In this document: positions 9,301 through 60,100 of the stretch, piece after piece
Position numbering within the stretch: position 1 is the stretch's first letter
Layout of the letters: every line of letters begins with the position of its first letter
The notes under the pieces: model-generated
Databases searched by the model: none
What the model was told of the DNA's origin: nothing
What the model saw: only the letters and a program-made list of their open reading frames with translations
Made by a program: the position numbers and the translations under genes
From: Branchiostoma floridae
Taxonomy: Eukaryota > Chordata > Leptocardii > Amphioxiformes > Branchiostomatidae
NCBI RefSeq assembly: GCF_000003815.2
Contig: NC_049990.1
Location: 10,142,601-10,206,600 of the forward strand
Direction: 5' to 3'
Length of the DNA stretch: 64,000 nucleotides

Positions 9301-12300
9301 TCTAATGCTGTGTTGCATTTTACTGTGGCCATCTTAGGTGAGAAATGCGCCATATATATGCTGTTTCCATGTGAAAATTTTTTGTTTGACTCCCAACAAA
9401 GCTATATAGCAGGTAAGGTTATCAACTGAAATATTTCTCATTCTTCTCCGAGCAGGTGTGTGTTGTGTATACACAAACCTTTTCACAAAAGAATTACATA
9501 TATAGTCAATACCTGGAGCAGATTGTTGTAGTTTATGTGGCATTTTTGAACGGGTCGATGTAGCTTAATCGTTTTTAATAAGTGCATTGTTCAGTTGCAC
9601 ATAAATATAGAGCCGTTGCTTTGTCTTATCAGTCCTGTTGTACTTTCACCTGTATGACCCGTAATTGCGATACGAGGATGTCGACTGTATCAACCTGGGA
9701 CTGTTTGTTTACTCAGCGTGGTTACTTGGCGTATTGAGTGGCCTGTGTGGCCATTGTTCAGAATGAATGGGTATTCACCTCTCCACACTACGGTAAGGAC
9801 GGTGTTTAATCCCCCCCATGCTGCCAAACCCTGTAACCAATACAAATCTGATTTCATGCCAAAAAAGGCCAACCTCTAAGTCTGACTAATTGCTGGATAA
9901 TCTTACACAAAAGTCTAAAGGAAATATCACCTTTCTGTATAATTGAAAAGAGGATATCCCCCTCCATTTGTTACCTTAATGTTAGCCCCACTGGTATTAC
10001 AGTAATTTGAAGGAGTCAATGGCTAGAGCTTTAAGGTACAAAATGTATGATCTTGTAGCTTAAGTGAGTTCCAGCATTAGTTACTGTTATGTATCTACGG
10101 GTCAACTAAGATAGGATTGTTTCTTGGGAGGGTCTTTTTAGCGAATGCCCACAAACGCCCACTCTAGAGAAGTCCGCGCTGCACGAATCTCATTTTTTTT
10201 GCTTGGAATATGTCCACGTTGTGCTCCCATGTATTAATCCTGAGTTTCAAGTCAATCCATTGACCCGAAGTGACATAAATCAAAGTTTTCGATTCTCGAT
10301 GGTCTTTTTAGCGAACGCCCAGCAAAATGTCTTTTTAGCGAATGCCCACTATATCCACAAAAATATCGGCCGTCGCGCAACGACACCTAAACCTACCGCC
10401 ACAAACATGTTCAGGATGGTGTCCCATTGATGTGTACGGAGTTTCCGTGCTTTACAAGCATTTTAAGTCCCTGTTTTTGGTCAAAATGTACGGCGACGAT
10501 ACTACCATACTTTAACTATAGCAATTCAAAATGGCGGGCACTAGTCATGTGACCTCCTTGCGGGACTGTTCTATAAGTATCGCGGGAGGGACTGTTGTAG
10601 CATAGCTTCTCATACAACCATTTTAGAGTGAATTCTGAAGAAGATTTTCATTTCATAGTGCTATCATCTGACTGATATTTACAATGTGGTCATTTTTTCT
10701 GTGCTATTATTACCCAGGTTTGAGGAACTAAGTGCAAATTTGGATATTGATTCACCTCAGTGCCCAATTAATGTACAAAAGGCTCAGACACATTAGTGTT
10801 ATAAACCTGAATAGGGGCAGGTAACCAATACTAGAAAAACATAGCTATTTATTATTAACAATACTATTTACATTATAATAATAACTCTTAACCAAACTGG
10901 ACTTTTCTTAAATTTATTTATCACAGAAACATTGTTACAATGAGGATTTGATTAGATGAGTATCTGTTACAGTGTGTACAAACTTATTTCAAATACAAAA
11001 ATGTATTTCGTTTCACTTCCTAAATATTTTTAAAGTATTGGAAGAAGTTGACACATAAACAATATTAATTGCATTATTTATGTGCAGTAAAATGTGACCA
11101 CATGCTATCAATAGCCTAATAAAATGTTGGAACATGGCACAAGCGGGCTCCTCTTCTGAGTACAGAAAGGAAATGTTTTATAACATTTAGTTATGACGTA
11201 GAAAATTTCAATTGTAAAATGTACCTTTATTAACATTTACAAACAAATTGTTTTTTTCTCTTCTTGATAAATGACAACAATACAGGTAAGTAAGGTGTGT
11301 TTCCTTTTATAACAGACTAGGTAAGACACCGTACAGGTAAGTAACGTGTATTTCCTTTCAGTACAGACCAGGTAAGACACCGTACAGGTGAGTAAGGTGT
11401 GTTTCCTTTTATAACAGACTAGGTAAGACACCGTACAGGTAAGTAACGTGTATTTCCTTTCAGTACAGACCAGGTAAGACACCGTACAGGTGAGTAAGGT
11501 GTGTTTCCTTGACTAGAGACTAGGTAAGACACCGTACAGGTGAGTAACGTGTATTTCCTCTGATTACAGACCAGGTAAGACACCATACAGGTGAGTAACG
11601 TGTATTTTCTTTGATAACAGGCCAGGTAAGACACCATACAGGTAAGTAAGGTGTGTTTCTTTTATAACAGACCAGGTATGACACCGTGCATGTGAGTAAC
11701 GTGTATTTCCTTTGATTACAGACCAGGTAAGACACCATACAGGTGAGTAACGTGTATTTCCTTTCATTACAGACCAGGTAAGACACCGCACAGGTGAGTA
11801 AGGTGTGTTTCCTTTGTCTATAGACCAGATAGGGTATTACACAGGTGAGTAAGGCGTCTTTCCTTTGCCTATATACAATATAGGCCATTATACAGGTGAG
11901 TAAGGCGTCTTTCCTTTGCCTATAGACCAGATAGGGTATTATGCAGGTGAGTAAAGCAACTTTCCTTTGCCTGTAGACCAGATAGGGTATTATACAGGTA
12001 AGTAAGGTGTCTTTCCCTTGCCTATATACCAGATAGGCCATTATACAGGTGAATAAGGTGTCTTTCCTTTCCCTATAGACCAGATAGGCCATTAAACAGG
12101 TGAGTAAGATGTCTTTCCTTTGCCTATAGACCAGATAGGCCATTATACAGGTAAGTAAGATGTCTTTACTTTGCCTATAGACCAGACAGGGTATTATACA
12201 GGTGAGTAAAGGAACTTTCCTTTGCCTATATACTACCATATAGGCCATTATACAGGTGAGTAAAGCGTCTTTCCTTTGCCTATAGACCAGATAGGTATTA

Positions 12301-15300
12301 AACAGGTGAGTAAAGCAACTTACTTACCTGTATAATGCCCTATCTGGTCTATAGGCAAAGGAAAGACGCCTTACTCATCTGTGCGGTGTCTTACCTGGTC
12401 TGTAATCAAAGGAAATACACGTTACTCACCTGTGCGGTGTCTTACCTGGTCTGTTATAAAAGGAAACGTACCTTACTTACCTGTATGGTGTCTTACCTGG
12501 CCTGTTATCAAAGGAAATACACGTTACTCACCTGTATGTTGTCTTACCTGGTCTGTAAACAAAGGAAATACACGTTACTTACTTGTACGGTGTCTTACCT
12601 GGTCTGTGAACAAAGGAAATACACGTTACTCACCTGTATGGTGTCTTACCTGGTCTGTAATCAAAAGAAATACACGTTACTCACCTGTACGGTGTCTTAC
12701 CTGGTCTGTTATAAAAGGAAACACACCATACTTACCTGTATGTTGTCTTACCTGGCCTGTTATCAAAGGAAATACACGTTACTCACCTGTATGGTGTCTT
12801 ACCTGGTCTGTAATCAAAAGAAATACACGTTACTCACCTGTACGGTGTCTTACCTGGTCTGTTATAAAAGGAAACACACCATACTTACCTGTATGTTGTC
12901 TTACCTGGCCTGTTATCAAAGGAAATACACGTTACTCACCTGTACGGTGTCTTACCTAGTCTGTAGTCAAGGAAACATATCTTACTCACCTGTACGGTGT
13001 CTTACCTGGTCTGTAATGAAAGGAAATACACGTTGCTCACCTGTAAGGTGTCTTACCTACTCTGTAGTCAAGGAAACACACCTTACTCACCTGTACGGTG
13101 TCTTACCTGGTCTGCTATAAAAGGAAACACACCTTACTTACCTGTACGGTGTCTTACCTGGCCTGTTATAAAAGGAAAGACACCTTACTTACCTGTATTG
13201 TTGTCATTTATTAAGAAGAGAAAAAAACAATTTGTTTGTAAATGTTAATAAAGGTACATTTTACAATTGAAATTTTCTACGTCATAACTAAATGTTATAA
13301 AACATTTCCTTTCTGTACTCAGAAGGGGAGCCCGCTTGTGCCATGTTCCAACATTTTATTAGGCTATTGATAGCATGTGGTCACATTTTACTGCACATAA
13401 ATAATGCAATTAATATAAAAATAAAATGAAAATATTTAGGAAGTGAAACGAAATACATTTTTGTATTTGAAATAAGTTTGTACACACTGTAACAGATACT
13501 CATCTAATCAAATCCTCATTGTAACAATGTTTCTGTGATAAATAAATTTAAGAAAAGTCCAGTTTGGTTAAGAGTTATTATTATAATGTAAATAGTATTG
13601 TTAATAATAAATAGCTATGTTTTTCTAGTATTGGTTACCTGCCCCTATTCAGGTTTATAACACTAATGTGTCTGAGCCTTTTGTACATTAATTGGGCACT
13701 GAGGTGAATCAATATCCAAATTTGCACTAAGTTCCTCAAACCTGGGTAATAATAGCACAGAAAAAATGACCACATTGTAAATATCAGTCAGATGATAGCA
13801 CTATGAAATGAAAATCTTCTTCAGAATTCACTCTAAAATGGTTGTATGAGAAGCTATGCTACAACAGTCCCTCCCGCGATACTTATAGAACAGTCCCGCA
13901 AGGAGGTCACATGACTAGTGCCCGCCATTTTGAATTGCTATAGTTAAAGTATGGTAGTATCGTCGCCGTACATTTTGACCAAAAACAGGGACTTAAAATG
14001 CTTGTAAAGCACGGAAACTCCGTACACATCAATGGGACACCATCTTGAACATGTTTGTGGCGGTAGGTTTAGGTGTCGTTGCGCGACGGCCGATATTTTT
14101 GTGGATATAGTGGGCATTCGCTAAAAAGACATTTTGCTGGGCGTTCGCTAAAAAGACCATCGAGAATCGAAAACTTTGATTTATGTCACTTCGGGTCAAT
14201 GGATTGACTTGAAACTCAGGATTAATACATGGGAGCACAACGTGGACATATTCCAAGCAAAAAAAATGAGATTCGTGCAGCGCGGACTTCTCTAGAGTGG
14301 GCGTTTGTGGGCATTCGCTAAAAAGACCATGCGTTGTTTCTTGACCTGGTTTAAAATTGGAGCAGCCGTCTTATCTTCAATGGAGTAGTCTTTCATAGAT
14401 ATATAGACCTTTGATTTTGAAGTCGTAAAAAGAACAAGACATCAAAGATCTCCTACCTTTGTGAAATGTGTCCAGTATCTGTGAACTTGTTTTATTCCTT
14501 ATTGTGAGTTTCTTGCATATTGTGTTTACTGGTAATGGATATTTCCCTCTGGCTCCCTTTGACCAACAGAGATGGACGATATATCATATGGCAGAAAATG
14601 GAAGACAGGAAACGAGATAACCTTTTTTGGGACCTTTGACCTAACTTGTTCCTGACTGCCTAGCATGTGGAAAACATCATTTGTTCCTGTCAATCTGTGT
14701 TTACACCATTTTCTTGTCATTTTACTGTATTCAGGTACAACTACGGAGTGTTTGGCAAGTCCATGAACCAAGAAATTGAAAAACTAAAAGGGGCCCGAAA
14801 TGAGCATTAGGTTGTTCTTTTGTCATGTGGCAAGTCTCAGTTGCCCAATCCAATGCCTGAATACCTCCAACTGTCTGGTAAATGTTTGACCAGTAAGATA
14901 ACAATCAGAAGTGCACACCTGGCTTTCATCTGCCTAATCTATGGATTACTCCTCAAAGCCCATCAGAAGCCAGTTACTGCATACATATAGTTACATCTGA
15001 AATCCTATAGCAACTGTGGATATACCTTAAAGGAACAACAATGAGGCAATATGTAAAAGATTTGCTTTCAGCATTAAGAGAATTTCTTTGCTCGCATAAC
15101 AGTAACCATTTTTGTCAGATTGCTTACATGATACAGACACGTTTTGATAGCAACAACATCTCCAAAGTGTAAGTCTCTTTAGTTATTTTTTACATACCTT
15201 TAGGGACCGTACGGCATTTAGCGAGGGGGGAGGGCCGGTCGCCAGGGGGGGGAGGGCCAAGCAAAAAAATATTTTGCCAGGGGGAGGGCCAAGCAAAAAA

Positions 15301-18300
15301 AAATTGACTTGGGGGGAGGGCCAAGCAAAAAAAAAAAAACTTGGTCTGCCAGCAAAATATGTCCCTTAAAATCCAAGAAACGGCGTTTCAGAGGGTCAAG
15401 ATTTCAAAATTTTTCTGGACCTCTGCAAGGGATCGCCGATGGTTGGCGCTCGGGACACAGTGAAAATGCGAAAGGGAGGGGGCGGAGCTTATGCATGACG
15501 CCCTCGAAAACCCTTTTCACTTACAGAAATGTTATTAAACTCTAGATTAATCTGCCAGCAAAATTTACCCCTGTCTTATTGCCCTCAAAATGTAAGAAAT
15601 TGCGTTTCAGAGCTAGAGGGTAAATATTTGCAAATTTCCCTGGACCCCTTTTGACGTGACCGGCCTCGCGCCTTTGATGACCGACATCTTGATAATGTGT
15701 TTGGGGGGGATTTAATTTGTATTTCTAAATTGAAATGCCATTAAAGTTAGCTTTATTTGTCAGCAAAATATTTCCCTCAAACTGAAGGAAATAGCTTTTA
15801 AGAGGGTCAAGATTTCAAAATTTTCCCGGACCTACCTTGCGATTCTTCGTGCCTTTGGCGCCGGACATGGTGTTCGGAACGACTCGTTCTCAAAAACTTG
15901 AAACCCACGTATTTTTTTTTTCATAGAAATGTCATCTAACCAGCAAGTTTTCCCATAAAAAAAGCAATGCAGGAAATCGTGCCAAAAAAGCGTGGCATTT
16001 CTAAAAGATCTCCTGCAAGTCTGCGTTCTCACGCCCGCCGGCGGTTAGAGAGAGGCGACCGGTCCGACCCCGCCGTGGGAAAATCAGCGTCACGCGTCGG
16101 CGCCCCCTCCCCACTATAGTTTTGCTTAGTCGAATCGTGCTGTCGTTTTGGTTTTCATTTTTCCCCCCGATTTTCCGTAAGAACCACAGAACCAAGAAAA
16201 AGTTCAAAATATATGTAAATTGAAAATAGTTTCCGGCAAGCCGCTCAGGTCCGCGAGCTTGCAAATACGTAAATTTAGGGCGCGGGGCGCGCGCCGCTTC
16301 GTAGCGCAAATCTACTAGAAATCCAGATACAAATGCTTTTTAGGTGTTGTTTTAATATCAAAACAATGAAATAGCTTCTATAAAGCAGATATTTATCCCT
16401 CTATTAAGCAGATATTTCGAGCCATTCTGTTTTCCTTTTTTACTAGGGGTCAGAGAGATCTGCTTCTCGATGAAAATCATGAGTATGACGCAAAGCACAT
16501 TTCCAAATGGGAGCGCAGTGTTTTATTGGCGTCTTGAATATTTTTTTTTCAAAGTTGATAGGAGGGGGGAGGGCCTAGCAAAAAAATATTTTGCCAGGGG
16601 GAGGGCCTAGCTAAAAAAAAATTACCTGGGGGGAGGGCCTAGCAAAAATTTTTTGACCCGACCCTCTGGCGACCGGCCCTCCCCCCTCACTAAACGCCGT
16701 ACGGTCCCTTAGAATGATAGGGAGTTAGGATATCATATTGGTAAGGTGAATCTAAGGTATGTTCATTGTTTGCACACGATTTAAAGCCAATGTTTGAAGT
16801 CTGTTTAATGAAGTTTTCTATGATGTTTTGAAGGCAAGAAGTTTCAGGTCGCTAAGTGCTACAAGCAAACTTTCTTGACTTTGAGAGCAGTGTAATTAAT
16901 ACACAATGTACCAGCTATCACTCAGGGCATCAAATACCTAGTCTGGGTGTCCTCCTTATTTAATAGTTTGCCAGGGCTCCCATACCCCATTTGATATACT
17001 AACAGGTTCAATAGTTGCCTTGTTAGTTTACTGGGGCTTCAATGCTCCCCCCTTAGCAACTGGCCATGGTTGCTAAGGGGAAGTTTAGGAGTGCCGGAAG
17101 ACGGCAGATGTTATCCTGACTGCAAAATATGTTCTGCAATTTGCAGCAGAAAAGAAATCAAAACATACAAATAGTTGCAGGCTACAAAAAAAATTATAAT
17201 ACTGCCCAGAGGAATTTGTCCTTCTAACTGGAAATCCATTCAGATAGTATTTTTGATAGCCAAGTAGCAGCCCTGGGTGCAAATTTTGAAATAGATTTAA
17301 AGGTGACAACTTCTGTGATACATGGAAGGAAAGATTCACAGGGACGAAGATAACCTGTTATTTGGTCACCATAGCAACAGGAAGTCCTGAGATTTAGGTC
17401 AGTAAACTCGTTAACATGAAGGCTCACTAATCTTCCTAATGTGTTTTTAATCGTGCTAATTGTTATGTACCTGTTCCAGGCTTGAGAACTCAAGAGATAA
17501 AATATGGTGCCTTAAGGCCTGTGACGGTAATAACAGATTATTTTGTGGTTTGGGGGAGTCAGGTAGGTCTGTATGTTTACAGAGTTGGATATTTGAAAAA
17601 ACTCTATTCATATGCTATTTATGTAACACCCCAAGACAATTCTTTATCTAGAATCTACAGATATTTTGGCTTTTTACATGGACTGGATAGATCAATGGAA
17701 AAATTATCTTGAGAAATTTCTGAGACACAATTTCCTTACCCGAGACGATAATGGTGAAAAAAGAACGAAAGTGATAATGAATTTATGATTACCAATTAGA
17801 CAATAACAGTAGGTTTATGGAACTTAAAAACCTTAGATTGAAGTCATATTTGCATGCACATTCTACAACACTGAGGTATGAGTTTTCTCGTGGTATTTAT
17901 TGATTGATATTGATTTGTATGTATTGGAATGGCCCCTACTGAAGCATCTCTTGTAAACTAGTCTAACTGGTAATTGAAATTTGCATGTAAAGCAGCAAAG
18001 CTCCTAACCTGACCCTCCTCTTATGTTTGAAAGTGGAATAGCCTGGAGAAATGTTGTACCATGTTGTCATGGTAACCTCCCAAACAGCCACAGGTGTAAT
18101 CCTTGATCCAGGCAAACTGTCATAATGTTGTATGATAAATTACTTTAGTTGCATTCATTAAATCACTGTTTCTACTTTTGAATGATCACTGTACTTGTTG
18201 TTATAGTCTTGAGAAAAGTTGTTAAAAACTTCCAAAAACATAAACATATTCAATTTCATGTTTTTACAACTTGAATAAACAAATTTGCAATGCCTGATGT

Positions 18301-27300: not shown

Positions 27301-30300
27301 ATTATCCTATGCTTTCTGATAGAAAATATTATTAATGATTCCCAAAAGACAACATTGCCAAGAGTTCTGTCAGTCTATTTTGCTCTACAGTGACACATCT
27401 TCGTGAAATGATATATTCTTCATCCTTTATATCCTTTTTATCCTTCAATATCCTTTATGACAGTTAATCTTTCAAGATCAACAGAGCAAAAACAATACGT
27501 AGCTTAATGTCATATTCCAGCCCTTAGTTACAGTTCTACTACTGAAATATTCAAATGATCCCATCACTGGCAAAAATCAATCAATCAACCAACCAATTAG
27601 TCAACCAATCAGTAACCTTTATTCAGATTGGGTCACCCTTGCCCATCCTTCCTTGAGGTCCAGTGGGAGGTTGTTGCTGAGCAACCTTTGTCCAGAGCAC
27701 AGGGAAAACAACACCATCTGACCTCCGGACAGGGACACTGTCGTCTGGGATTTTTCTTGGGAAGTGATTTTTGCATGAATGAGACAGACATTCAGTTAAT
27801 TTCAAAAACAAGTTAGAATGATAGGCAATTCTCTTTCTTTTCTGGGACACCATTAAATGCAGCATTTTTGATAGTAGAGGGCAATTGAGTAATCTTCAAT
27901 TCCACTGTACTGTATTTACAGGCAGGTCTAAGAAAGACAGGAAGGAGAGAAGACGAACTCCTACTACGTCAGTTGAGGCAACTGAAGATAAAGTAAGTAC
28001 AGAAATCCTTTTAACACCGGAACTGGAGTCAGCTAAATGTATGAAAGATCATCTAAAACATACATCATGATTTGTAAACATGTATAATCATTTTCTATCA
28101 TAGTTATTACTTAAGATTAAAAACCTCACTAAATATTTTTCCTATATAAGGGACCGTACGGCATTTAGCGAGGGGGGAGGGCCGGTCGCCAGGGGGGGGA
28201 GGGCCAAGCAAAAAAATATTTTGCCAGGGGGAGGGCCTAGCAATTTTTTTTTTACTTGGGGGGAGGGCCAAGCAAAAAAAAAATAGCTTGGTCTGCCAGC
28301 AAAATATGTCCCTTAAAATTCAAGAAACGTCGTTTCAGAGGATCAAGATTTCAAAATTTTTCTGGACCTCTGCAAGGGATTGCCCGAGGTTGGCGCTCGG
28401 GATACAGTGAAAATGCGAAAGGGAGGGGGCGGGGCTTATGCATGACGCCCTCGAAAACCTTCTTCACGCACAGAAATGTTATTAAACTCTAGATTAGTCT
28501 GCCAGCAAAATTTACCCCTATCTTATTGCCCTCAAAATGTAAGAAATGGCGTTTCAGAGCTCGAGGGTAAATATTTGCAAATTTCCCTGGATCCCTTTTG
28601 ACGTGACCGGACTCGCGCCTTTGATGACCGACATCGTGATAATGTGTTCGGGGGGGATTTAATTTTGTATTTCTAAATTGAAATGCTATTAAAGTTAGCT
28701 TTGTTTGTCAGCAAAATATCTCCTCAAACTGAAGGAAATAGCTTTTAAGAGGGTCAAGATTTCAAAATTCTCCCGGACCTACCTTGCGATTCTTCGTGCC
28801 TTTGGCGCCGAACATCAAAAACTTGAAACCCTCGTATTTTTTTTTTAATAGAAATGTCATCTAACCAGCAAATTTTCCCATAAAAAAGCAATGCAGGAAA
28901 TCTTGGCAAAAAAAGCGTGGCATTTCTAAAAGATCTCCTGCAAGTCTGCGGTCTCACGCCCGCCGGCGGCTAGAGAGAGGCGACCGGTCTTACCCCGCCG
29001 TGGGAAAATCAGCGTCACGCGTCGGCGCCCCCCTCCCCACTACAGTTTTGGAAGTCGAATCGTGCTGTCGTTTTGGTTTTCATTTTTCCCCCCGATTTAC
29101 CGTAAGTTATTACCACCACAGAACTAAGAAAAAGTCCAAAATATATGTAAATTGAAAATAGTTTCCGTACTGTACGTAAATTTAGGGAGCGGGGCGCGCG
29201 CCGCTTCGTGGCGCAAATCTACTAGAAATCCAGGTACAAATGCTTTTTAGGTGTTGTTTTAATATCAAAACAATGAAAAAGCTTCTATAAAGCAAATATT
29301 TATGTCTCTATGAAGCAGATATTTATCCCTCTATTTAGCAGATAGTTTGAGCCATTCTGTTTAACTTTTTTTACTAGGGGTGAGAGATCTGCTTCTCGAT
29401 GAAAATCATGAAAAAGTATGACGCAAAGCACATTTCCAAATGCGGGAGCGCAGTGTTTTATTGGCGTCTTGAATATTTTTTTCAAAGTTGATAGGAGGGG
29501 GGAGGGCCAAGCAAAAATATTTTGTCTTGGGGGGAGGGCCTAGCAAAAAAAAAATTACCTGGGGGGAGGGCCATGCAAAAATTTTTTGACCCGACCCTCT
29601 GGCGACCGGCCCTCCCCCCTCACTAAACGCCGTACGGTCCCTAAGCTCTGCGTTGTCTTCATTTTTCTGGAATATTGATGCGTTATTTTTCTGATTTACT
29701 CCCAGGCACCAAAGTCCATAATGAAGAAGACCAAGACACAGCCCAGAAGAGTCTCGGCCCCACGTGTGACCATTGAGACAGAGCCCCAATCCTCCATATC
29801 CCAGCAGACAGACACAGACGTGCCCACTGCTGTAGAGGACTACCCCATAGAGGAGGAGATCGAGTCTGTTTCTGAGGTCTCCACTATTGAAGTCCCACAG
29901 CCCAAGCTTATCCTGGATAATAAAGGTGATAACTGCAACCTGTGTGTCATTATCAAATCTGCCCCACACTCCCAGATAATTATTACTACCCCCTAAGTAA
30001 ATGTACAAGTCTGTTACAATGACATAATGCATAAAACATAATAATGGACAGTTGACATCATTATAAATCTATGATTGTGAAGGTTCTCAACCAAATGTAA
30101 TCACTGCCTCAGCTGAGTAAACAACTCTTGTGTACTTACCTGTCTTGGGTCTTGCTTCGTCACCGCAGTGTTTGTCTGTAAACAACATTGTTTTTCACTT
30201 AATGAATTCTATTTCAACTTAGCATTATTTCAACTTTAGTTTTAACTATGCTGTTGATAGTTGCGTTGTGTCCTTCTTTTTTAGCTTCTTAGTTTTTTTA

Positions 30301-36885: not shown

Positions 36886-42138
<5,253 letters not shown>

Positions 42139-51100: not shown

Positions 51101-54100
51101 ACCCTTTGACTCTATTTGACTGTCTTGCCCTGTTGTGTGCATCTCAGATCTTGTCCAACTCTGAGCTGCCTGACCAATGGAGACATCTAGGGTTAGAGGT
51201 CATCGTCACGCTGGCTGAGACGGCCCCGGCCATGGTCCGCAAACGTACAAAACTCATTCCTGTCCTGAGTAAGTGAAACGTTTTGTAATAATACAGTCAG
51301 AAATTTCTTCCTTCTTTCAAAACTGTGAACTTTGGAAATTGCTTCAATCCTTTCAAAACTGTGAACTTTTTTTCTGACTTTTGACCTTGACCCCAGTCCC
51401 TCAGGTCATGGCCCTAATGGTTGACCTTGAAGAAGAAGAAGACTGGGCCACTTCTGACGAGGCTGAAGATGAAGATAGTGACAGGTCTGATTTTTTTCAT
51501 TTCTGCTCAATTTTGAAAAAAAAACTTCCAATGCCTTAGGCCATTCTAGTAGTAGTTATTCAAACCATGATCCTATTGTCTTATTTAGGATTGTAGTAGG
51601 GAGTGAAGTCAGGATTGTTTTTTATGTTGTTAGAAAAAAGATCTGATTTGTTATAGTCACAATCATGGCTGTTCCTTGCAAAAGTGCCACCTGTTGGAAC
51701 TGATACAAACTGCATGCAGTACTGTCAGGAGGGGAAATGGACAATGCACTGATGTACCAAAAACTTTTATCCAATCACCAAGTTGATGAATATGAATCAA
51801 GCTAAACGATTATTGTGGGTGTAGCTGCATCTCTATCTTTACAGAAGCATGTTGCTACTTACAGTACGTATCACACAATTGTCTGCGATTGTTGTTTCCA
51901 GTAATGCCATCGCGGGTGAGACAGGGCTGGACAGACTGGCGTGTGGGTTGGGAGGGAAGACAGTCCTGCCCCTCGTGTCCGCTGCACTGCCACAGATGCT
52001 GCAAAATGGTATGGCTTACTTGTAGTATCTTATCATTATAGTGTTGTTGTTGTTGTTGTTGTTGTGGCTATCTGCGTCAACATTCAAATGTCCCTGGAAA
52101 AGTTGTGCTAGTAAAGATATTTTGGACTGTTTCATGATTTATAGATGGTGTCATTCCAAGGCATTCTGTAGACTTGTTTTAAAATCCTACCCAAAGTGAG
52201 ATATATGAGATATCTCTTGTACAGTAGTACATGTACATAGTGTGTATTCAACCTATACTACATTTCTGTTGAAAACAAGGTCAGATATTTCCTAAACCTT
52301 AAGAATGTACCAACCATTTTGCAATGTACTATTGCTAGACTATTTAGAATGGAAGCATTAAAAGAAGCACATATAAATATAGGAGCTAAGATAATGGAAT
52401 CCAGGCTAATCATAGTAGTAGTGCTAGATTTTTAATGTAGACACACACATTGTTCCTATCCCAGCTGACTGGAGATACCGCCATGCCGCCCTGATGGCCA
52501 TCTCAGCCATCGGTGAAGGCTGTCACAACCAGATGCAGGCCCACCTACCCAGTGTGGTGGAGGCCGTACTGCCCTTCCTACAGGACATGGTGGGTTCACA
52601 CAGCCTTGTGTTGTAAACTTGTAACTACTGTAAAATTATTAGATACAGGCACACCTCCCCAGTGTGGTGGAGGCTGTACTGCCCTTCCTACAGGACATGG
52701 TGGGTTCTATCAGCCTCATGTGGTTCCTACTATATAATCCCTTGGTTGTGAAATAATGAATTTTAGAAAACTTGTCCAACCCTGGCAATGGTTTTATTTT
52801 GCATTCATGATTTTTTTTTTTAAATGTGACTGTTACGAAGTTTCCATTTTTTTCCATGTAGAAAATGACAGCTAGATCTAGTAGTATGTTTCTTGTTACT
52901 AACTTTTGTCTGTCCCCCCAGCACCCCAGAGTCAGATATGCAGCCTGTAATGCGCTGGGACAGATGGCCACGGATTTCGCTCCACTCTTCCAGAAGAAGT
53001 TCATTGATAAGGTATGTACATGTTTATGGATATCATAGCCTTTTCTTTTCAATATTTTTGGCTGGGGTAGGAAAACAGAAAAGAGGAAAATGATGATTGT
53101 TGAGAGCTATGAAATGATAGGGGGACACTGTCTGTACATGTACACTGTATTCTGCAGTTGGTTCCTTTTTGTATGCATGTGGTCTAATGTTGAACGCCTA
53201 ATGAAGGGACTAAACTGTGGAATGTGATTGATTGATTGGTGTTGATTGATTGATTGATTAATTGATTGATCTACCCTGCAGGTTATCCGAGGCCTGCTGA
53301 TCGTGTTGGATGACTTCCAGCACCCCCGGGTTCAGGCCCATGCCGGCGCAGCGCTCGTTAATTTCAGCGAGGACTGTCCCAAGAGCCTGCTGCTGCCGTA
53401 TCTGGACCCCATTCTGGCCAAGCTCGAACATGTTCTGAGTGTGAAGATTCAAGAGGTGTGCAGTTTGTTATCACTTGCAAATAGATTTTTATTTGTTTTT
53501 ATTCAGAAGGCACTTCTCCTTTTCTTGAGGCGAGAGCTCTTGAAAGTACAAGGGTTTAACATTGGATTGAATGCTGAACATCCCCTCACATGCTGTAAAA
53601 GATGTAACTTTGTAAGGACTAATAGACTGATCCTATCTGTCCATCACAATTAGCAGTTCAACCAATGGTAGCATGGCAATTAGAGTTTCAACCAATGAGA
53701 GAGCAGCCTTATGTTCAAATATTTGCAATTTTAGGTGTGCACTTTTTGCATTTCTACATTATAACAGGTGGGCAAGGCTATGAGACTAGCCTATGTACTT
53801 TTCAATAGAATGATATTAGCTTCATATACTTTTCGTCCTTTCATGATTTAAGATTGGTTATGTTTCCTCAGGTTCTTGCCAAGGGAACAAAGATCGGGAA
53901 AAATGCAGATGANNNNNNNNNNNNNNNNNNNNNNNNNNNNNNNNNNNNNNNNNNNNNNNNNNNNNNNNNNNNNNNNNNNNNNNNNNNNNNNNNNNNNNNN
54001 NNNNNNNNNNNNNNNNNNNNNNNNNNNNNNNNNNNNNNNNNNNNNNNNNNNNNNNNNNNNNNNNNNNNNNNNNNNNNNNNNNNNNNNNNNNNNNNNNNNN

Positions 54101-57100
54101 NNNNNNNNNNNNNNNNNNNNNNNNNNNNNNNNNNNNNNNNNNNNNNNNNNNNNNNNNNNNNNNNNNNNNNNNNNNNNNNNNNNNNNNNNNNNNNNNNNNN
54201 NNNNNNNNNNNNNNNNNNNNNNNNNNNNNNNNNNNNNNNNNNNNNNNNNNNNNNNNNNNNNNNNNNNNNNNNNNNNNNNNNNNNNNNNNNNNNNNNNNNN
54301 NNNNNNNNNNNNNNNNNNNNNNNNNNNNNNNNNNNNNNNNNNNNNNNNNNNNNNNNNNNNNNNNNNNNNNNNNNNNNNNNNNNNNNNNNNNNNNNNNNNN
54401 NNNNNNNNNNNNNNNNNNNNNNNNNNNNNNNNNNNNNNNNNNNNNNNNNNNNNNNNNNNNNNNNNNNNNNNNNNNNNNNNNNNNNNNNNNNNNNNNNNNN
54501 NNNNNNNNNNNNNNNNNNNNNNNNNNNNNNNNNNNNNNNNNNNNNNNNNNNNNNNNNNNNNNNNNNNNNNNNNNNNNNNNNNNNNNNNNNNNNNNNNNNN
54601 NNNNNNNNNNNNNNNNNNNNNNNNNNNNNNNNNNNNNNNNNNNNNNNNNNNNNNNNNNNNNNNNNNNNNNNNNNNNNNNNNNNNNNNNNNNNNNNNNNNN
54701 NNNNNNNNNNNNNNNNNNNNNNNNNNNNNNNNNNNNNNNNNNNNNNNNNNNNNNNNNNNNNNNNNNNNNNNNNNNNNNNNNNNNNNNNNNNNNNNNNNNN
54801 NNNNNNNNNNNNNNNNNNNNNNNNNNNNNNNCATTGAGTGTATCAGTCTCATCGGGCTGGCTGTGGGGACACAGAAGGTAGTTGTTATGTTAACTAAGAT
54901 GCTAAGCTTTATCCTATACCTCTATTTTGTACTCTGTGTAATAGTTGTAGTTAATATTGCAAATGTACAATTTCCGTAAAGTTCTTCATATTTAGCTAAT
55001 ACATTTACGCTGCATTTGGGGCTGAATTCAGACTGTCATTGTTTGTTTGTATGTACTCTTGAGTCCCCTACATGAACAGCTTACATGTTTGTTTGTTTGT
55101 TTGTGTGTATAGTTCATGCAGGATGCAGCTGACATGTTTTGTTTGTTTGTTTGTGTGTATAGTTCATGCAGGATGCAGCTGACATGTTTGTTTGTTTGTT
55201 TGTTTGTGTGTACAGTTCATGCGGGATGCAGCTGACATGTTTGTTTGTTTGTTTGTTTGTGTGTATAGTTCATGCAGGATGCAGCTGACATGTTTTGTTT
55301 GTTTGTTTGTTTGTTTGTGTGTACAGTTCATGCAGGATGCAGCTGACATGTTTTGTTTGTTTGTTTGTTTGTTTGTTTGTGTGTACAGTTCATGCGGGAT
55401 GCAGCTGACATGTTTGTTTGTTTGTTTGTTTGTGTGTACAGTTCATGCAGGATGCAGCTGACATGTTTTGTTTGTTTGTTTGTTTGTGTGTACAGTTCAT
55501 GCGGGATGCAGCTGACATGTTTGTTTGTTTGTTTGTTTGTGTGTATAGTTCATGCAGGATGCAGCTGACATGTTTTGTTTGTTTGTTTGTGTGTACAGTT
55601 CATGCGGGATGCAGCTGACATGTTTGTTTGTTTGTTTGTTTGTGTGTGTGTACAGTTCATGCAGGATGCAGCTGACATGTTTGTTTGTTTGTTTGTGTGT
55701 ACAGTTCATGCAGGATGCGGCTGATGTGATGCAGATGCTGCTGGCCACACAGACAGACTCCCAGGCCCAGGAGATGGACGATGATGATCCTCAGGTACAA
55801 CAGTGCTACAGGCTATTGTTTCACGGACTATTGTTCAGTACTGCATTGTTCTTCCTTAAGGCTGACTTCATGAATGGGTGTAACTAATAGAGAAGAAAAT
55901 GTACTAAAACTTCTTCAGACTGATAAAACTGATAACATCTTTCTGTAATATTGAGGGCTTGTTTGTGTTATATAAACGTGTAGATTTACATTCACATCCA
56001 TTGTTTTCACATCCATTGTCTTTCCCTGACGGTATATTTCCGGTTGTCCCTGTGCCCATTTACAAAGCTTTAATGTTTAAATGGATGAGATGAAGATGAG
56101 ATAGTAACATTGCTTCAAAGCATCTTCTTTTCTGCTGACTAAACAGCCACATGCAATGTTATGATAATTTTCTTCTGTAGTTTGCCATGACAGTACTGTC
56201 TATGACACTCTATGACTCATTGTTTCCCCCCTTACTGTCCCAGATGTCGTTTATGATCTCAGCCTGGGCGAGGATGTGTAAGCTGCTAGGGAAACAGTTC
56301 CAGCAGTACCTGCCTGTGGTCATGGGCCCACTGCTCAAGGCTGCTGCTATCAAACCGGAGGTCGCACTCTTAGATGGTCAGTCTCTCATACAAAACCTGT
56401 TAGTGTCAGAATGGCTATCTGGGGATTATATATACCTTTACAGAATGGAAACGTGTCGTTTTTGTTCCATTTCTTCTTCTTCTTCTGTAAACAAATAAGG
56501 GCATTGACTTCGACCAGGCTGCTGTCACCTTGGTTACTGAAGGGATAGTAGACACCCTGTGGTGCTTGATTATATAATGTAGCAAGTGGCAGGACAGAGA
56601 TGGAGGGGCTGGTTGCAATATATATGAAAGTGTTTGAGGAATAACAAACAGCAGTAGTACATGTTAGGCTAGACAATGTGAACGCAAACTGAACATGCTT
56701 GTTTACAAATGTTACCTTTTTTATAGTTACTCTGATATTTTGTTTCTTACACCATGATTGTCATCTGCTTGTTTGTGCTATGTTCCAGAGGATGACATGA
56801 AACAAGTTAGTGAAGACGATGGCTGGCAGTTTGTGTCCCTGAGTGATCAGGTAAAATTGCGTCCTTGGTGTACTGTCTTCACTTCTTCACACTACAGTTT
56901 TGTCACCTACCAATACTTCAGAGACAGCTTCATTATTATTACGGCCTAACTCACATTGTTTTGTCTCTCGCCAAAAAGCAGTGACTCAAGCAACTGAATA
57001 TGACTTTGGAGATGGTCCGACGTTTCAGACACCATCCGATGTCTTTCGTCAGTAACACTGGAGAGAACTTGTTGGAGAGCAGTTTTTATCCTTGCTGTGA

Positions 57101-60100
57101 AGTGATATGCAAAAGAGATCTAGATGGAGAATAGTTTTATCCTAACTATGAATTAATATGCAAAAAGGGGAGGAAGACTATTTTTTTCAACTGCTCTCCA
57201 ACAAGATCTCTCCAGTGTCACTGACAAAAGACAACAGATGGTGTCTGAAACGTCTGATCATTTCCGAAGTCATATCCAGTTGCTTGAGTCACGGCTTTTT
57301 GGCGTATCTTATTACCTGGATGTCTAATCTTCATCGACATGTTTTGTTTCTGTATTGTAGCAAAGTTTTGGCATCAGGACAACAGGTTTGGAGGAGAAGA
57401 GTACAGCGTGTCAGATGTTGGTTTGTTACGCTCGAGAGTTGAAGGAGGCATTCGCAGACTACACAGAACAGGTGGTGAAGCTCATGGTGCCGCTGCTCAA
57501 GTTTTACTTTCATGATGATATCCTTTTAGCAACTGTTCTTTAAGATACAGCTGTTCTTTAAGATACAGGTATTTCTATTAATGAACTTGCAGTTGACAGC
57601 AATCAGGGTTCGAAATTTATTTTTGGGATTAGTGCACCCACAGAAAAAAATTGGGTGCACAGAACCAATTTTGGGTTCACCAAGAGAAGGGGTCTAGACA
57701 AATGTATTCAACTCTTGTAGCCATTCAGAACTAATTTCCTTTTAACTGAGAGGAATCTTGAGATTTAATTCTGCAGAAGGGAGAAAATGAAGTGTTTGTT
57801 GTTAGTTAAAGTTACCCAACAAAAATATCCATGGTGGTTTTAGGTTTGCAGTAAAGGAAAGAAGTCACTGCAAAAACTGTTAACACTAAACTAGTGCAAA
57901 CATTTCCTCTTGAAAAGTACATGTACATATATTGTATGTATATAACAGAACAGAGCAGCTAGATTTCTAGGATATTGGAGATTTCTTTTTCACAACCAGA
58001 ATGCCTCTTACCTGCTGACGTTTCGATGTCTGTCATGATCAAAGATCTTCCTCAGAGCTTCTGATTGGAATTCTACCTACCTGATGAAAGCATTTTTGGA
58101 AGCTAGATTTCTTGTTTTATTATATCATCCTTAACCGCGGTACTTGTGAGATTGTCGGCTGCAGAGATCATGCCGTGCCTGATCGAGTGTGCGACGACCA
58201 AGGGCGAGGTGTACATGCGGGAGATGTGGAACTTCATGTGCCCCGAGATCATCGCTGCCATGGGAACAGAGCCGGAGAGCGACGTCCTGTCACAACTCAT
58301 GGAGTCTTTCGCTAAAGTAAGGACCCTCCGTGATGCTTTTTGCAGTAACATGTTAGATGTACTCTGATGTTTATTTGATATTTTTCTGTCCCCAATAAAG
58401 CAAATTTGTAAATGCTAAATACATTGTAATGCATTAGATAGAACAAGCTAAAAAATTTAGTTCACTGCAGCACTGTTGTTATTTTCACCAATTTTTTTAT
58501 AATTTAGCTATTGCATAAATTGTAAAAGTATGACTTAGAAGACAACGAAATTCACAAAACGTAAGAAAATTTGTTTTTTTATCTCTGACCTTTGTTGAGA
58601 AATCTTTCAAACCCCGCAGTGCCACAACGGTGCCCAAAATGTAGTGAGATACCACCTTAAGGAAGGACAATTCGTATACCTTTCAAAAACACCCAAAAAC
58701 CTTTTGTTCTCTGCACTCAAGATTTACGCAACATCACATTATTCTTTTGCCGTGCCCAGTGTGTTGAGTTGCTGGGGAAGGGCTGCCTGAGTAATAATGA
58801 ACACCTGTCCAGTCTGGGGAAGACCATCAACGACCATCTGGAGGCACACTTCCACAAGCAGGACGAGAGGCAAGGTGGGTAACCATGGTTACAGTACTGG
58901 TGTTAGCTCTTGATGTTGTACTATATACCTAGGTACTTTTTGTCTTTTTAAGTTCTACCATACAAAGGAAATGTACAGTCAGATTTTGGTGGTAGATTAC
59001 AATTCATTCACGATGAATTTCATCAGTGGACCAAGTACAAAATTGGAAGCTGCAAATGTTTTGGGTGATAACTTTGTGGATTATTGCCAATTGTTGCATT
59101 ACACTATTTCTTTAATTGGGGGATCTGAATACAGAGTTTAATTCCTTTTGTTTCCAGAAAGGAGAAAAGATGAAGACATGATGAGGTGGTAGAAGAAAGC
59201 TTACAGGAACAGGTGAGTGTTTAAGAAAGTGCAATGCTCAAAGTACAATGTGCATCTTGGGAGGAATTGTGGATTGACAAACTTCAAGCATGGCCTCTAG
59301 AATACTGCCAGAAAAGTGCTTCCCTTTTCTCTTATCATGTCACCAAATTTGTAAATCCACATTTAAATGTACTGATCATCTTAAGACGTTTTTCTGCTTG
59401 ATCCTTTTCTTCTAGAATGAGGATGACATCTACATGTTGAGTAAGGTGTCGGACATCATCCACTCCCTGCTGGGGACACACAGGGAGGAGATGCTGCCGT
59501 TCTTTGAACAGCTGATGCCGCACTTTATCAAACTGTTGGTAGGTGGCGCTGTGGTGTGAAAGACTCCATTTCATACTGCTAACATGTGCAAAATTTCATC
59601 ACACAAGATAACAGAGCTACAGCTGAAATTTTTACATGTACTTGCTCAAGGTTTTGTGTCATGGTAACTCTTTTTTTTAAGTTTTAGTAAATCGTTGTTT
59701 TTAAATGTATATATTGTATTTGTGTATGGGCCATGGTGCTTGAAATAAACAATAAACTAAAACAAAACTAAACTGTTATCGGGACCACTTCCTGACATCA
59801 TCACCTTGTGTGTAGATCAGAGCCAAATCTGTTACATCATCAGTTTGCATCCACACAACTGGGTTCGGTTCTAACCTCTGTTTGTTTCTGGATTGCAGAC
59901 GAATGAGAGACCCTGGTCAGACAGACAGTGGGGCTTGTGTATCTGGGATGACGTGGTGGAGTACTGTGGACCGGTGAGTAGAAATCATTGCACCAATTCA
60001 TTATTACCAAAAGCACAGCTTTTTCTCACAATTTTCTCTGTTAATGAGAAGTATGTATGACCAGTCAATTACCAAGCTTCATGATGCAATAATATTCTGG

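Follow-up and report, generated by a model that had tools for sequence, protein, structure and literature searches.

Twelve near-identical 3' splice sites before one importin-5 exon: a probable mirage minisatellite in the amphioxus Branchiostoma floridae

How is one exon entered when twelve near-identical 3' splice sites stand in a row before it, and how could such a row have come about? Both questions are raised by a locus in a 64,000-nucleotide stretch of Branchiostoma floridae DNA (hereafter the window), in which a tandem array precedes what a preliminary description, made from the letters alone, had named exon 16 of importin-5. The identification of the gene held. Much of an importin-5 gene lies on the + strand of the window, and pieces of its open reading frames, used as a query against PDB chains, matched three importin-5 chains with E = 2e-123 to 2.3e-123, which we take to be human, as well as four chains of importin subunit beta-3 (E = 1.6e-28 to 2.5e-27). 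Open frames with GT-AG junctions run through the exons between 47097 and 53455; they resume at the readable end of exon 15 and continue through the exons after it, a run of N close upstream of the array masking the gene before that end. The junction that holds the array is made up as follows, with a slash at each splice boundary:

54833 to 54877, + strand: readable 3' part of exon 15, donor AAG/GTAGTT, aligning with importin-5
54878 to 55704, + strand: intron containing the array, 827 nt
55705 to 55794, + strand: true exon after the array, 90 nt, donor CAG/GTACAA, aligning with importin-5

At 827 nt this intron ranks second by length among the 25 introns measured in the gene. In the open-frame model exon 15 (end 54877) is joined to the conserved exon by the acceptor at 55705 only, and the open frame aligns with PDB importin-5, which bears out both the exon limits first proposed (54877, and 55705 to 55794) and the claim that only the last acceptor enters the full exon. 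No Pfam family was found in the 112-residue frame at 55549-55887. The gene model has two exceptions, one AT-AC intron and one frame break. The intron, at 57518-58143, begins ATATCCTTTT and ends TCCTTAACCGCGGTAC, giving the joined frame FYFHDVVRLSAAE; these are presumably the ends of a U12-type AT-AC intron, and just inside it, at 57533-57568, is a perfect two-copy repeat, CTGTTCTTTAAGATACAG, with an acceptor-like ATACAG at its end. The frame break falls in an exon drawn at 59158-59212, with the gene open downstream in another frame; an error in the sequence or a wrongly placed boundary may account for it.

The array was delimited in two ways. A search of both strands for TGTAYAGTTCATGCRGG, allowing up to two mismatches, gave 12 matches, all exact and all on the + strand between 55106 and 55714, against a chance expectation from 100 dinucleotide shuffles of 0.06 on average and 1 at most. 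The matched acceptors (TGTAYAG/TTCATGCRGG) are arranged head to tail, and Tandem Repeats Finder reported an array at 55086-55724 with a period of 53, 11.9 copies, 90% matches and 6% indels. Its parts are:

55086 to 55112, + strand: TTTG tract and acceptor 1 (TGTATAG)
55113 to 55704, + strand: eleven extra units, each a 24-nt exon-like start with CTGAC, then (TTTG)n and TGTAYAG

Acceptors 1 to 6 end at 55112, 55162, 55215, 55268, 55326 and 55388, and acceptors 7 to 12 at 55441, 55495, 55548, 55598, 55655 and 55704, so that the eleven units measure, in order, 50, 53, 53, 58, 62, 53, 54, 53, 50, 57 and 49 nt. Every one of the eleven is laid out as TTCATGC(A/G)GGATGCAGCTGACATG, T3-4 G, (TTTG)3-6, (TG)2 or (TG)4 and TA(C/T)AG. 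The eleven extra copies of a 3' splice site plus exon start that were originally described are thus upheld by 12 exact matches where 0.06 were expected, and their anatomy, an intron end followed by an exon start, had been read correctly. Two figures needed adjustment: a unit length given as 47-62 is correct in its upper value and becomes 49-62 bp when measured, and the 20 or so exon bases ascribed to each unit are better described as a 24-nt exon-like part, of whose first 20 bases 18-19 are shared with the real exon. This 24-nt part has one variable position among the 11 units and differs from the real exon at 3-4 of its 24 bases; beyond base 20 the unit departs from the exon, which has TGTG, and reads CATG as in the intron flank. 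Tandem Repeats Finder also gave a period of 107, but a two-unit higher-order repeat was rejected, the permutation test for alternation giving p = 0.09.

Amphioxus genes are known to carry structures called 'mirages', which are minisatellite-like tandem copies of exon-intron boundaries (PMC3087553, PMC3902484; all papers are cited here from excerpts). The excerpts place them in Adh3 and in the globin genes BflGb6 and BflGb9 (PMC3087553), add PGBD5 and cite TnC (PMC3902484), and report them on both 3' and 5' boundaries (PMC3087553, PMC3902484); the repeated boundaries have been proposed to give rise to new introns (PMC3087553). The BflGb6 mirage has the make-up seen in importin-5, an intron's 3' end together with the 5' portion of the following exon, and splice signals survive in many of its units, though not in all; it has 6 and 3 units, of 150-160 bp, in two haplotypes (PMC3087553), compared with 11 extra units of 49-62 bp in importin-5. 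The importin-5 unit lengths fall inside the 10-72 bp range of the Adh3 mirage (PMC3087553). Within the excerpted parts of PMC3087553 and PMC3902484, importin-5, a TTTG microsatellite and a branch-point-like motif in each unit are not among the mirage features, and a search of the open-licence literature for importin or IPO5 together with minisatellite found no paper. In our judgement the array is probably such a mirage minisatellite; slippage or unequal exchange would have produced it, and exon definition would lead to use of the last acceptor.

The copy number comes from one assembly and one sequence, and a misassembly that produced the array or its copy number is an explanation to which we give a low probability. 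A run of N close upstream would favour it, as would the reports that one globin mirage seems to be wrongly assembled in the draft genome (PMC3087553) and that one locus was found in two versions, with 2 versus 7 and 3 versus 6 repeats (PMC3902484, in excerpt). However, the 11 units comprise 10 distinct sequences, units 3 and 8 being the only identical pair, which disfavours simple duplication of one read; the array runs unbroken into the real exon; and in the published case, as excerpted, re-sequencing spoke against misassembly (PMC3902484).

The units repeat more than an AG. All eleven extra units contain CTGAC, a good fit to the animal branch-point consensus, 29-42 nt ahead of the end of the next acceptor, and the upstream flank has a CTTAC whose A, at 55083, lies 29 nt 5' of the end of acceptor 1. 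In all 11 units the stretch from the A of CTGAC to the next acceptor is free of AG, and so is the corresponding stretch of the upstream flank. For the true acceptor this gives:

55675, + strand: predicted branch-point A (CTGAC), from the motif only

This A, 29 nt short of the end of the true acceptor, falls in the stretch of unit 11 that resembles the exon start. With a CTGAC in each unit and no intervening AG, each unit is a candidate complete 3' splice site, and the choice of acceptor is therefore probably one among twelve predicted branch-point/AG modules and not one among AGs behind a single branch point. The branch-point motif was rejected as a gene-wide property, CTRAY occurring in that range in 6 of the gene's 23 other introns versus about 13% of shuffled segments, and for this reason the branch points of the units stay motif predictions. 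NAGNAG tandem acceptors are likewise near-identical acceptors competing at one intron end, but they lie three bases apart (PMC3250501, in excerpt), compared with 49-62 nt in importin-5, where each has its own candidate branch point.

The acceptors were scored with a matrix built from the gene's 23 other GT-AG acceptors, which themselves score 6.72 on average with a range of 1.18-10.97 (leave-one-out). Seven acceptors of the array (3, 5, 6, 7, 8, 10 and 12), including the true one, are identical letter for letter from -20 to +3 and score 8.46; the TAG acceptors 1, 2, 4 and 9 score 5.38, and acceptor 11 scores 7.23. All twelve end in CAG or TAG and score inside the range of the other 23. Among 826 other AGs in the gene, with the array and the N stretches excluded, 1.3% equal or exceed the score of the true acceptor and 5.2% that of the TAG acceptors. 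Because seven of the twelve, the true one among them, are identical, the local sequence from -20 to +3 is unable to pick the right acceptor. The 24 real donors of the gene score no lower than 2.27 (leave-one-out), and the highest score among the array's 108 GTs is 0.68. As no GT of the array reaches the level of the weakest real donor, the units are unlikely to serve as internal exons, and that role was rejected.

We computed the consequences of upstream acceptor use with the rest of the array kept in the exon. The reading frame is changed by 8 of the 11 extra acceptors, in agreement with the expectation that upstream use would often be out of frame, and an early stop follows for 10 of the 11, 66-243 nt past the acceptor. 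Every one of the ten stops is a TGA, placed at base 18 of either a unit or the real exon: eight belong to a CTGAC and two to the CTGAT of the exon, at 55722, so that the predicted branch-point motif doubles as a stop. The stop at 55722 lies 70 nt ahead of the exon end, and nonsense-mediated decay follows a 50-55 nt rule; transcripts stopped early through upstream acceptors should be targets of that decay.

These properties bear on whether the array has a function. The extra acceptors could be decoys in a regulated or tunable element, leading some of the pre-mRNA into early-stop transcripts, with copy number setting importin-5 output; we think this unlikely. It would fit with all 11 extra acceptors scoring within the range of the gene's 23 others and with 10 of 11 giving an early stop, every such stop being the TGA within CTGAC or within the CTGAT of the exon. 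CFTR exon 9, which has one acceptor where the importin-5 array has twelve, offers a parallel. There too a UG/U-rich tract stands directly before the 3' splice site, and the excerpt connects UG-rich sequence at that place and TDP-43 with missplicing of the exon (PMC12171016). Against decoys, regular splicing is reported as undisturbed in the published mirages, so far as the excerpts go (PMC3087553, PMC3902484), and recent expansion alone predicts near-identical units. An unstable splicing rheostat, in which twelve near-equal complete 3' splice sites have their own branch points, CTGAC doubles as the TGA stop that ends most wrong choices, and copy number, varying between alleles or even between cells, sets the amount of importin-5, seems to us improbable to a slightly greater degree.

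Acceptor 9 is the sole one among the 11 that meets no stop through 56376, and it adds 52 residues in frame. A real protein variant could come from this acceptor, but we consider such a variant very improbable: translated, the repeats give an insert rich in Cys, Phe and Val within a conserved protein, and acceptor 9 belongs to the TAG group, whose four members score lower.

What could single out the last acceptor is the exon that it yields. Acceptor 12 gives an exon of 90 nt, acceptor 11 one of 139 nt and acceptor 10 one of 196 nt, and acceptors 9 to 1 give exons of 246-682 nt, each of which would exceed every one of the 23 other complete exons in the gene model (55-229 nt, the 55-nt one being that with the frame break). 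From these exon lengths and the conserved protein we infer exon definition as the rule by which the last acceptor is taken. Acceptors 10 and 11 also give an exon of ordinary length, so length alone cannot single out the last, and these two would be the likeliest leaks. Another rule, linear search, has the first AG downstream of the branch point chosen (PMC1431707, in excerpt), and this counts against the last acceptor: a search starting from an upstream branch point, if one were used, would arrive at an upstream acceptor. An open frame runs through the last acceptor, a result that fits undisturbed regular splicing, and published mirages, so far as the excerpts go, appear to leave regular splicing undisturbed (PMC3087553, PMC3902484).

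A mirage in importin-5 could have formed as follows. The 3' end of the intron would have been duplicated in tandem together with some 20 nt from the start of the following exon. The intron flank ACAGCTTACATG and the exon GCGGCTGATGTG have a short similar stretch in common, and the initial duplication may have joined these two. On our reading a single crossover there fails to explain the variable bases 15 and 19 unless substitution followed later. Expansion and homogenisation would then have proceeded through slippage or unequal exchange, the TTTG tract perhaps helping. Normal mRNA would still be made with the last acceptor, since that acceptor yields the conserved 90-nt exon beside its donor, as exon definition would have it, and missplicing to any of the others would in most cases bring in an early stop, with nonsense-mediated decay clearing the product. 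The upstream edge may preserve one more, degenerate copy:

about 55034 to 55085, + strand: possible decayed 13th unit, with a TTTG tract, TGTAC and CATGAACAGCTTACATG, the CTTAC (A at 55083) included

With the TTTG tract counted, the score of this edge unit was reached by 0 of 1000 shuffles, and without it, over 55051-55085, by 86 of 1000; the sequence signal for a decayed unit thus comes mainly from the TTTG tract.

A second boundary duplication was found in the same gene, this one at a 5' splice site:

52531 to 52610, + strand: first copy, exon end and donor (the exon ends at 52589)
52641 to 52722, + strand: second copy, within the intron, again exon end and donor

The donor of the second copy, if used, would add 111 nt that include a stop. 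At the start of the second copy is ATTAGATACAG, a possible acceptor, and for that reason the copy could act as a duplicate part-exon. An enrichment of boundary duplications in the gene was rejected: 2 of 51 boundaries carry one versus 14 of 2000 controls at a score of 50 and 43 of 2000 at a score of 24 (0.7-2.2%), which is too few to claim.

Other repeats occur elsewhere in the window. A 4.2-kb palindrome at 10131-14328 has outer arms (10131-11039 and 13420-14328) that are 99% complementary, and its interior holds two facing 51-bp minisatellite arrays with units like tiny introns (CAG/GTAAGT...TTACAG); we take it to resemble a foldback-type element. A similar 32-bp unit, GGGGGAGGGCCAAGCAAAAA, forms short tandem arrays at 15247-15344, 16565-16648, 28195-28280 and 29497-29591. 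A LINE-like element is marked by a 431-codon open reading frame at 39953-41248 that encodes an RVT_1 (reverse transcriptase) domain, E = 3.7e-33.

The importin-5 array is a probable new case of the known amphioxus mirages, and the mirage reading would place a conserved nuclear transport gene among the genes that bear them. With seven acceptors alike over all 23 scored bases, the choice among them cannot depend on those bases. Clean use of the last acceptor, if it occurs, would speak strongly for exon definition, or for a rule based on position, and against a search that starts at the first branch point and runs 5' to 3'.
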